From Niveispirillum lacus (GTDB taxonomy: Bacteria > Pseudomonadota > Alphaproteobacteria > Azospirillales > Azospirillaceae), in assembly GCF_002251795.1 (NCBI RefSeq), contig NZ_NOXU01000031.1, positions 248,001 through 312,000 on the forward strand: 64,000 nucleotides of DNA, given 5' to 3'. The notes under the pieces were generated by a model. It saw only the letters and a list, made by a program, of their open reading frames with translations, did not search any database and was not told the origin of the DNA. How positions within the stretch are numbered: position 1 is the stretch's first letter; each line of letters begins with the position of its first letter. Below, one piece after another: positions 18,498-21,535 of the stretch. The position numbers were made by a program, and so were the translations under genes.

Positions 18498-21400
18498 TCA
18501 GCGATCAAACAGACGCTTGAAGCGCCGCTTGGCCAGCCCCAGGGTGGCCGCGCGATACGTCAGATAAACCCTCAAGGACAGTTTCAGGATACCGTAGCGC
18601 AGCACATAGGGCAGGGGGATGCGGGCAAACCCGCCCAGACCATAGCGGTACACCGCCTCCACCAGCTCTTTATCCGTGTAGGTCGTGACCTTGCGGTTGA
18701 TCAGGTCGGCCGACGCCATGTCGTATAGCGACTTGGCCAGATCATGTTCGCCCAGCTTCACCAGCTCGGTGATCGGGTGCAGATGATCGGACCAGAATTG
18801 CTGCCATTCGGCGTCACTGGACCGCGCCACGATCTGCGGGGCCACCTTGTAGTAGAGATTGACCGCCGACCGTTCCTTGTCGGTCTGCATCTTCTTGTCA
18901 CGCAGGAAGCGGGCCAGCGTCAGTGGTTCGCAATCATCGGGCAGGCCGCGTGTACGCACCGCCGCGGTGGTCAGGAAGCAGCTGGCATCATCCTCGTCAT
19001 TGTCATCATTGTCGTCGTTATCATCGTTGTCGTCATTGTCGTCGTCATTATCATCATTGTCGTCGTTGTCATCATCGTCATTGTCGTCGCCGTCGGGATT
19101 ATCTTCTTCATTGAACTGGTTGGCTTCGTCTGGCGGCACTTCCCCGGCGGCGGCTTCCTCATTCAGGGCGTTGCCTTCCCCAAACAGGTTCTGGTAGGCG
19201 GCGCTGAGGTAGTTATAGCCAAGCTTTGCCAGGTACTTCATGGCTTCGAACACAACCATGACGGAAACGCCGATGGCGATGGCCTTGGCAACGGCCGCCC
19301 ATTCGGAGTCCTCCTGTTGGGACTGTGATGGTTTCGGCGGGTCGGAGGCGCTGCCTTCGTTGCCATACAGGTTTGGCGAACTCGGCTTTGTTGTGCCCGT
19401 TGTATAATAATAACCGAACAGGTTGGCGCCCGTGTAGGTATTGTCCGAATACATCTGGTTGTACCACCACTGCATATAGATCAGCAGCGTGTAGCTCCCG
19501 ATCGTCGCCGTAAAGGTACTGTTCAGCGGGCTGAAGGTGGCGGGTGCGGTCGTGCCCTGGAAGGTGATGGTCGACCCATCCGATGAAATGGTCAGGGTCG
19601 CAGTGGTTGAACTGTTGAGCGTGCATTGGTAATCGCCAGCCCACAGGCTGGGTGAATCCAGTCCGCTTGGTTGCAACGACGCGCTGGACGAGTAGACACT
19701 GCGCCGACCGGTGGAATTGATGGCCGCCCCACCCGAGGAGGATGTCAGGGCAACGGTGACATTGAAATCAGTCGTCTGCACGCCGCCGGGTGGCACAACA
19801 ACGCATGAGGACAGGACGATCGAGCCGTTATAGGGAAATGCCGCCGAGCTGCCGACAAAGAACGTGCCGGTAGTGTTGTTGAAACCACAACTGCTGGTGA
19901 TGTCGACCAGCGGGATGGTCGATGTCGCCACCTTTAACTGCCAGGCGCCATTGTTGCTGCCCAGCGTGACATAGATGCTGGCATCGCCGCTGGAAGTGAA
20001 GGTCTGGTAGGACCCATAGGCCACCGACGGGGAGGTGCCGAAAGGCGGATAGGTGGTCAGACCATTGCTGCTGGTTGTCGTCGTGGCATTGGCCGTCAGG
20101 GTCGTCGACTGGGTCGTGCTGGGTGACGTGCCATCAATGGTGCCGCCGGTCACCGTGGCAATGGAGTTGTAGACGTCCTGCGTTGTAACCTGGGTATATC
20201 CATCATTGTTGATGAGCGTCTGAACCGCCGCATCGGCATCGGATGCGGACCCGCCTGCGGCCAAGGCGTTGTAATAGGTGGTGTAAAGCGTGGCGCTGGT
20301 GTTGTTTTCCAGCAGGCTGTTCAGATAGTCGTTGGCATTGTCTGTCGAACTGTCCGTCGAACTCGCCGTGGTGGCATCGGCCGTCGCAAAATCGGCGGTG
20401 GTCGGGGCGGTGGCGGTCAGGGCAGCGGGGTTGCGTTTAGAAACGCTGGACACCCGGCCCATCGACCGCGAGAGCACGGCCTGTGTTTCTGCCTTCGACA
20501 GGGTCGGATAGGCGCGCAGTGTCTTGCGCGGGTTCTGCTCAAAATGCCGCAGCACCCGTGCATCGGTCGCCAGATCGGAGACCAGCTTTAATAACGCGTC
20601 ACTGGACCGCCGTTCGAAATACCCCTCTGGCAGCTTGTGTCTGGCAAGGCTGTCCGCCGCACGTTTTGTCTTTTCTGTATTGGCGGTCTCCCACAGGGTG
20701 GGGCCGACCGACTGGGTTGCGCCGACCTTGCCATAGCCAGCGGCCTTGACCCGATCTTCCGCAGCGCCCAACAGGGTTTTGGGCGGCAGGTACAGGGTGC
20801 TGACGCCCGAAATATGCGCCTTCTGCGCGTCGGGGTTCAGCAGATCCGACAGTTTCAGGTCGATACGGGAGGGAGCGAAACCAGGATAATTGGAGGCACG
20901 GTAGATGGTGCAATCATGATCGCCCTGGTAATCATCCAGCAAAGCCTGGATCAGAAGACTGAGATTCTTTTTGCCATAACCATTAAAGTCGAACTTGCTA
21001 TCGGCGAAGGCACCGATCTGCATCATGATGACTTGGCTGGTTGTGTTTAGCGGGCGTTTTCGGATGTAATAATCCGTTGCGTCTAGAATCTGACAGCCAT
21101 TGCGTGATGGGTCCACTTCCAGATCAGCAAAGACACAATCCATGGTGGTGATGCCGGGATAGATAATGGCTTCGCACCCGTCCTGGCGCGCCTGATAAAC
21201 CACGCGGCGGACCGCCTTCACAAAGACGCTGGGATGGCCATAAAACACGCCGCAGACGGATTCCCCGGCCCGGACACTTTTCAGTATGGCCTCTGCCATC
21301 TGCATATAGGTGATGTTGCGGCGTTTCCCCGTGCCATAATACTTATAAAGATCATGGCAATTTTCGTTCAGAGATCGAATAAAGGCAGCAGTCACGCCAT

Positions 21401-21535
21401 CAGCGGCGTGATAAATACACGATCCGCCGCCTTTATCTCGGCCACGGACTCCATCGTCATATGCGCAATAGATTTCAGACCGGTTCCGACAAAGGCGACA
21501 CGGCCTTTGCGGGGATTGTTGGTATCGGCGGGCAT
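18498..21535 (-). CDS. Borosin-type peptide alpha-N-methyltransferase fused to a ~640-residue C-terminal region (one-base frame break)
   Basis: Residues are numbered from the GTG at 21395. The N-terminal part resembles omphalotin precursor OphMA, an S-adenosylmethionine-dependent enzyme that methylates backbone amides of its own C-terminal core. Matching blocks include NENCHDLYKYY, VCGVFYGHPSVFV and CVFADLEVDPS. OphMA active-site Tyr66, Arg72, Tyr76 and Tyr98 correspond to Tyr20, Arg26, Tyr30 and Tyr52 with the same spacing. Residues 265-320 resemble the OphMA clasp helices. Beyond lie a Thr/Ser/Ala linker (325-450), a beta-rich part (450-670), a hydrophobic segment (698-718), an Asp/Asn repeat (766-803) and a CFI-box-like end (CFLTTA at 806). 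The nucleotide-binding start (VAFVGTG) is in another frame, from ATG 21535 behind GAGGAGA. Tetrapyrrole methylases share the fold, but the clasp and motifs favour a borosin. Function of the tail is unknown. Confidence 0.8.
18987..19100 (-). repeat. Asp/Asn codon repeat inside the borosin-like gene
   Basis: About 38 codons, almost all GAY and AAY, encode a (Asp-Asp-Asn)n-like tract at residues 766-803. On the plus strand it reads as alternating GTC/ATC/ATT triplets. Such a tract can expand or contract by slippage. At protein level it is an acidic spacer, perhaps calcium-binding, before the C-terminal CFI-box-like domain. Confidence 0.9.
21392..21403 (-). other. Frame break in the borosin-like gene (GTGA overlap)
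   Basis: The 47-codon upstream frame (21535 to 21395, stop TGA at 21394-21392) ends in RVFITPLMA. The long downstream frame starts at an overlapping GTG (21395). Aligned to OphMA, the two join without gap as RVFITPL-D-GVTAAFI if one base is added, or one is re-read, at about 21401. No slippery heptamer is visible. The site could be a mutation, a sequencing error, or a true two-part gene with translational coupling. Confidence 0.75.

Follow-up and report, generated by a model that had tools for sequence, protein, structure and literature searches.

What does a borosin enzyme methylate when its chain runs on for hundreds of residues beyond the clasp? This question is raised by a 64,000-nucleotide stretch of the Niveispirillum lacus genome (contig NZ_NOXU01000031.1, positions 248,001 to 312,000; called the window here), whose minus strand carries a 965-residue open reading frame (ORF) from a GTG at 21395 to 18498. 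A sequence-only reading had described this ORF as a borosin-type alpha-N-methyltransferase with a clasp and a very long tail that might hold the core. We recovered the ORF with the motifs quoted from it and confirmed the ~640 residues that follow the clasp; a core within the long tail was supported as probable. Judged from its sequence, the protein is best read as a fused bacterial borosin, type III-like, an enzyme of a known and ordinary kind with an unusual tail whose layout is little described. The most solid new finding is an internal Asp/Asn tract that is invariant between two orthologs and is flanked by a hydrophobic helix and a CFI-box-like end (Table 1). This tract, at residues 757-804, is the best core candidate and probably the methylation substrate.

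The borosin assignment was well borne out. A phmmer search of the PDB gave dbOphMA as the best match (E 3.6e-56, query residues 2-336), followed by OphMA (~5e-51), MroMA (~2e-35), and SonM (~1e-26 over residues 6-208). Borosin enzymes made up 25 of the 29 PDB sequences at E<=1, the remaining four being chance or low-complexity matches. The Pfam domain covering residues 24-164 is named TP_methylase (PF00590, E 2.8e-10), as would suit a tetrapyrrole (corrin or porphyrin) methylase without any link to peptide methylation. However, no such enzyme was present among the 29 PDB sequences and the clasp was matched as well, making this explanation extremely improbable and ruling it out at the level of the PDB comparison. 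The sequence-only reading had itself named a closer kinship to corrin or porphyrin methylases as a test of its proposal, and the proposal came through it. The clasp it had proposed is upheld at the sequence level by the dbOphMA alignment, which extends to query residue 336.

In gap-free alignments, Tyr20, Arg26, Tyr30, and Tyr52 fell opposite their counterparts in dbOphMA and OphMA, in agreement with the spacing noted earlier; in OphMA, we take these to be Tyr66, Arg72, Tyr76, and Tyr98, the numbers given in that reading. Across 40 relative loci, each counted on its best tblastn match with no motif filter, Tyr20, Arg26, and Tyr30 were present in 40/40 and Tyr52 in 38/40, the exceptions being Phe in L021 and Glu in L028. 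The latter locus, on a plasmid of Bradyrhizobium sp. 155, holds two close borosin-type methyltransferase genes, one of which encodes the Glu; a dioxygenase gene and one of the prolyl oligopeptidase family are also present there.

An intact ortholog (L003, from a metagenome-assembled contig of Azospirillum sp.; the same protein is found at L004) allowed us to compare the tail part by part. It is 1013 residues long, read through, and 88% identical. We cut the window protein by eye into 14 segments, each of which was set against the ortholog codon by codon for identity and for the ratio of nonsynonymous to synonymous divergence (dN/dS). Over the whole ORF, dN was 0.072 and dS 0.67. The methyltransferase segment was 96% identical (dN/dS 0.04), the linker between it and the clasp 79% (0.20), and the clasp 84% (0.10). 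Further along, values were 73% for the Ser/Thr segment 413-445 (0.26), 76% and 94% for the two presumed beta segments 446-560 and 561-680 (0.22 and 0.05), 65% for linker 681-700 (0.45), 86% for segment 736-756 (0.05), 92% for 805-840 (0.09), and 90% for 841-965 (0.11). Neither Pfam nor, at E<=1, the PDB gave a match in the presumed beta segments.

The Asp/Asn tract stood apart from all of these. Its 48 residues comprise 26 Asp, 12 Asn, 4 Glu, and 6 others, with Asp and Asn alternating in a (DDN)n-like manner and, when set beside type III cores, with hydrophobic partner residues nearly absent. All 48 residues are identical in the two orthologs, yet 15 silent changes have accumulated over its 19 silent sites. 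Two-fold codons were silently changed at 13/44 positions in the tract and 66/260 elsewhere, so the DNA of the tract is not unusually slow. If the 120 differences between the proteins were placed uniformly, the probability of the tract escaping them all would be 0.00175. The longest run of identity (residues 12-118) lies in the methyltransferase, and the second longest (757-814) spans the tract. One would expect a low-complexity spacer to change in both length and sequence over time; the other linkers of this protein have drifted in sequence, but the tract has not.

The search for orthologs, proposed earlier as a way to tell the conserved from the variable parts of the tail, thus returned 100% identity for the tract and 60% for linker 323-352. 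It points to the internal tract as the likelier core; the segment right behind the clasp and the extreme C-terminus are less favored. In a different arrangement, the methylated stretch of this fused borosin would lie elsewhere in the tail (residues 323-352, the Ser/Thr-rich segments, or the CFI-box end), and the tract would be an acidic spacer. An OphMA-type core does lie directly behind the clasp, the dbOphMA alignment stops at window residue 336, low-complexity linkers can precede CFI-box domains, and 42/48 residues of the tract are Asp, Asn, or Glu. Weighed against the low identity of the post-clasp linker and the Ser/Thr stretch, and against the acidic-repeat tails that shorter fused family members carry, this arrangement is tenable but doubtful. 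A core just behind the clasp is disfavored in particular because no other segment among the 14 is as poorly conserved as residues 323-352.

Relatives were sought in samples of 82 family, 385 class, and 398 phylum genomes, in 8 genomes of the G481 family, and in viral and genome contigs. Over all samples, one full-length relative was found, the protein shared by L003 and L004 (one locus in the genome-contig scan); the viral-contig scan gave none. Matches at E<=1e-10 were present in 17/82 family genomes, and 3/385 class-sample and 15/398 phylum-sample genomes had a match. Apart from the N. lacus genome itself and G481, the phylum matches were open frames of 269-452 residues with the methyltransferase only. 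Shorter fused borosins were found in the family genomes (n=17; 449-625 residues as read, three running off a contig end), and by eye 16 of the 17 end in tandem acidic repeats (SVEDVQEQN, DAAELN, and ATEEHDASEEHI units), the exception being L006. One lies in the N. lacus genome, where this second fused borosin (L002/L051:9525-11219, 564 residues) shows TEQH-type repeats and a TEQHETEQHEAEQHV-type tandem tail. In L054:8168-9802, on the minus strand, the borosin frame runs upstream into a tandem SWTWPNSPAA-type repeat. This repeat may represent an N-terminal core, in the manner of type 0 borosins, or may just mirror a GHVQLAAGE repeat ORF on the opposite strand.

More distant systems also have a hydrophobic helix with an acidic tract behind it. 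The G481 locus L050:6839-10363 encodes an independent fused borosin of 1174 residues, composed of the methyltransferase, the clasp, five W/Y-x-G-x-Y units, a strong, transmembrane-like hydrophobic helix, and a C-terminal alternating acidic tract; its gene adjoins one for a PLD/beta-propeller protein, with a P450 gene ~3 kb upstream. On plasmids of Azospirillum lipoferum and Mycetohabitans (L025 and L026), clasped methyltransferases are accompanied by separate upstream proteins of 632 and 618 residues, in which a hydrophobic helix is followed by a DVDVDIDTDTDNV-like tract with Asp/Val/Ile/Thr alternation and then by a further C-terminal part; the downstream gene is annotated StrG in both loci. 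A Burkholderia arboris plasmid encodes a separate protein of 308 residues that has TEVT repeats and lacks a hydrophobic helix. We infer that these separate proteins are precursors. Among 10 scanned proteins, 6 reached 35% Asp+Glu over 40 residues, and in 5 of the 6 (the window protein and L003, which are not independent in this count, the G481 protein, and two precursors) a hydrophobic 19-residue stretch starts 34-47 residues ahead of the acidic one. The sixth, the other Mycetohabitans protein, carries the acidic stretch at its very terminus, well away from the hydrophobic ones.

The window tail and the tails of L050, L025, and L026 have a common layout; common descent is not claimed. The W-x-G-x-Y motif and the order of parts are similar by eye between the window tail and other borosin tails. 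Homology of the tail to the middle regions of L024, L025, L026, and L050 was not significant by BLASTP, hidden Markov model (HMM), or hhalign, and the L024 protein and the 632-residue L025 protein gave no Pfam match at E<=0.01.

Several known systems described in two papers on borosins resemble the window protein. Validated fungal fused borosins are ~400-850 residues long (PMC8429565). The sequence-only reading had held that known fused borosins have only short core tails. This is contradicted by the bacterial type III enzyme KchMA, with up to 11 modifications within residues 742-796, and by the cluster 4 fused borosins, whose type VIII-like C-terminus extends ~160 residues beyond the presumed core (PMC11395268). 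Like the fungal OphMA and dbOphMA, the window protein has the methyltransferase and the clasp in one chain, with the same catalytic residues and spacing. OphMA, however, has 417 residues (PMC8429565) and a C-terminal core (PMC11395268), whereas the window protein continues far past the clasp and its candidate core is preceded by a hydrophobic helix and followed by a C-terminal domain. KchMA is likewise bacterial and fused, with its target far along the chain, as the candidate is here; compared by description, it favors Ala, Val, and Leu and also modifies some Asp, whereas the window tract is mostly Asp/Asn. Type III cores do show alternating acidic residues (PMC11395268). Compared by description only, the window protein closely matches cluster 4, with 160 residues (806-965) against the ~160 reported past the presumed core (PMC11395268).

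Bacterial split borosins are type IV (PMC8429565). Their SonM/SonA pair has the same methyltransferase domain by sequence, but the substrate is a separate protein and the enzyme is reported to lack a clasp (PMC8429565). The L025 and L026 systems share the clasped methyltransferase, the hydrophobic helix, the acidic tract, and a further C-terminal part with the window protein; unlike it, their presumed precursor is separately encoded, the tract is Asp with Val, Ile, Thr, and Asn, and the tails are without significant homology to it. A literature search, with most subscription journals outside its coverage, returned no paper joining borosin with Azospirill-.

The C-terminal domain (806-965) had no Pfam match and scored 27.4 bits against NF041770 (CFI-box-CTERM), under the curated cut-off of 40. 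Its CFLTTA...GLPDDC motif resembles that family, and it is 38% identical over 86 residues to annotated CFI-box-CTERM proteins of E. coli plasmids. The last 161 residues were found in 2/81 family genomes, the two with the full-length proteins, and among the 398 phylum genomes only in that of N. lacus. The CFI-box-CTERM domain was named in no paper of the literature searched. Such an end, together with the helix before the tract, raises the possibility that the modified polyprotein is itself the functional product, a membrane-anchored or exported domain that is permanently methylated with no small peptide released. Conservation of the presumed beta segment 561-680 and of the C-terminal domain would fit, as a disposable leader would hardly need it, and no protease family was found among the 8 Pfam-scanned neighboring genes of the window (some neighbors lay outside the scan). 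This is unlikely, as the adjacent P450 and the known borosin logic favor a tailored peptide, and a trans-membrane core would be beyond the reach of a cytosolic enzyme once inserted. The more specific idea that the invariant tract is backbone-methylated inside a membrane-anchored multidomain protein and works there unreleased has, in our view, a slim chance.

We favor, with a probability of about one in two, a fused borosin precursor whose substrate is most likely the Asp/Asn tract, with the helical and presumed beta segments as a putative leader and a P450 as the probable tailoring enzyme. This reading draws on the identity of the tract (48/48) against that of the post-clasp linker, on the acidic-repeat tails of the shorter relatives, on the helix-then-acidic layout in L050, L025, and L026, and on the P450 gene that adjoins the borosin gene in both orthologs (the P450s are 86% identical). 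The domain identity, the catalytic residues, the purifying selection, the frozen acidic tract, and the P450 neighbor kept in two genomes are established. By homology to OphMA, the N-terminal alpha-N-methyltransferase would form a clasped homodimer, and each subunit would methylate backbone amides in the tail of its partner. The acidic tract would be the substrate, held between the hydrophobic helix and the CFI-box-like domain, and the helical and presumed beta segments may serve as a structured leader. The adjacent P450 would probably add an oxidation, and a protease encoded elsewhere may release the product.

Several observations weigh against this reading. The main doubt is one of chemistry: the characterized borosin enzymes favor aliphatic residues, against 42 of 48 Asp, Asn, or Glu in the tract. 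Wild-type KchMA modifies some Asp, and engineered KchMA is reported to leave acidic residues unmethylated (PMC11395268). The CFI-box domain of the E. coli protein in L029 follows a Ser-rich low-complexity linker; as CFI-box domains are able to follow such linkers, the tract may be one as well. With a single full-length relative, the conservation argument comes from one protein pair. The AlphaFold2 models, with a mean predicted local distance difference test score of 31.1 at full length and 48.5 for the C-terminal 160 residues, were unfit for fold searches. The tail gave no significant similarity to the L024 precursor by BLASTP (best E 0.085) or to the L025 and L026 precursors by hhalign (best E 0.086), and the window had no match among the matches listed for an HMM of the L024, L025, and L050 beta units; in the control of that HMM, several shuffled sequences outscored the real L025 precursor. 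Finally, the window copy has a frame break.

This break lies in the N-terminal part. The glycine-rich strand binding S-adenosylmethionine (SAM) is carried by a 47-residue frame from ATG 21535, whose stop at 21392 overlaps the GTG start of the main ORF; the same SAM-binding N-terminus is in frame in L003. The overlap at 21392-21395 reads GTGA, a pattern able to permit coupled re-initiation. As it stands, the window copy is either disabled or misassembled. That it is an inactive remnant, a pseudogene, is a real possibility though the less probable one, and would be compatible with every family-level reading: the rest of the protein is not in frame with the SAM-binding strand, and the ortholog is intact. 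Against this, the 965 codons contain no further stop and the catalytic domain has a dN/dS of 0.04, so any loss of the window copy must be recent, and the break could instead be an assembly error.

Table 1. Features of the borosin locus (window coordinates; residues numbered from GTG 21395)
Feature	Position	Strand	Basis
Upstream ATG frame, 47 residues, N-terminal SAM-binding strand	21392..21535	-	First 41 residues match residues 1-41 of ortholog L003, by eye
Borosin alpha-N-methyltransferase domain, residues 1-208	20772..21395	-	phmmer against PDB; PF00590; catalytic residues; dN/dS 0.04
Clasp / borosin-binding-type helical region, residues 256-322	20430..20630	-	dbOphMA alignment; comparable segment in fused homologs
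Variable linker 323-352, site where an OphMA core would lie	20340..20429	-	60% identical, dN/dS 0.19
Conserved helical segment 353-412	20160..20339	-	92% identical, dN/dS 0.10; helical only in a very-low-confidence AlphaFold2 model
Two presumed beta segments rich in Ser/Thr (a variable one, 446-560; a conserved one containing W-A-G-x-Y, 561-680)	19356..20060	-	Ortholog identity
Hydrophobic helix 701-735	19191..19295	-	Kyte-Doolittle 19-residue mean 1.95 at 701; 89% identical, dN/dS 0.13
Acidic Asp/Asn tract 757-804, candidate methylation target (core)	18984..19127	-	Invariant between orthologs; composition
C-terminal 160-residue domain 806-965, CFI-box-like motif at start	18498..18980	-	Weak NCBIfam NF041770 score; E. 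coli similarity
Cytochrome P450 gene	17159..18406	-	91 nt downstream; ATG 18406, longer TTG ORF from 18508; PF00067 E 2.9e-21

Further neighbors in the window are of common types, namely a class IV aminotransferase, a chorismate-binding enzyme, a GGDEF-EAL protein, a Sde182-like hydrolase, and a proline dehydrogenase/aldehyde dehydrogenase. A different neighborhood was seen for shorter fused borosins in 8 Azospirillaceae loci (L051-L058, of which L051 is from the N. lacus genome), 7 of which have tandem acidic-repeat tails. A motif search found no P450-type heme motif in the 8 loci, and the long ORF that comes next in the same orientation encodes a sensor-kinase-like protein. Seven of these are TPR-GAF-HATPase proteins (by Pfam in L052 and L053, by BLAST similarity in five), and that of L055 is propeller-Y_Y_Y-GAF-HATPase. 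A tblastn search gave no match to the kinase-like neighbor in the window, in L003, or in L050. These neighbors suggest a signaling role for the shorter fused borosins.

Few mature borosins are known (PMC11395268), and not one split (type IV) pathway is reported to have had a final natural product at the time of its description (PMC8429565). With its invariant Asp/Asn tract, this fused borosin offers a defined, testable target on the margin of the substrate range known so far. If the tract is methylated, the chemistry of these enzymes would be widened from mainly aliphatic to acidic backbones, and folded parts would be able to flank a core on both sides.

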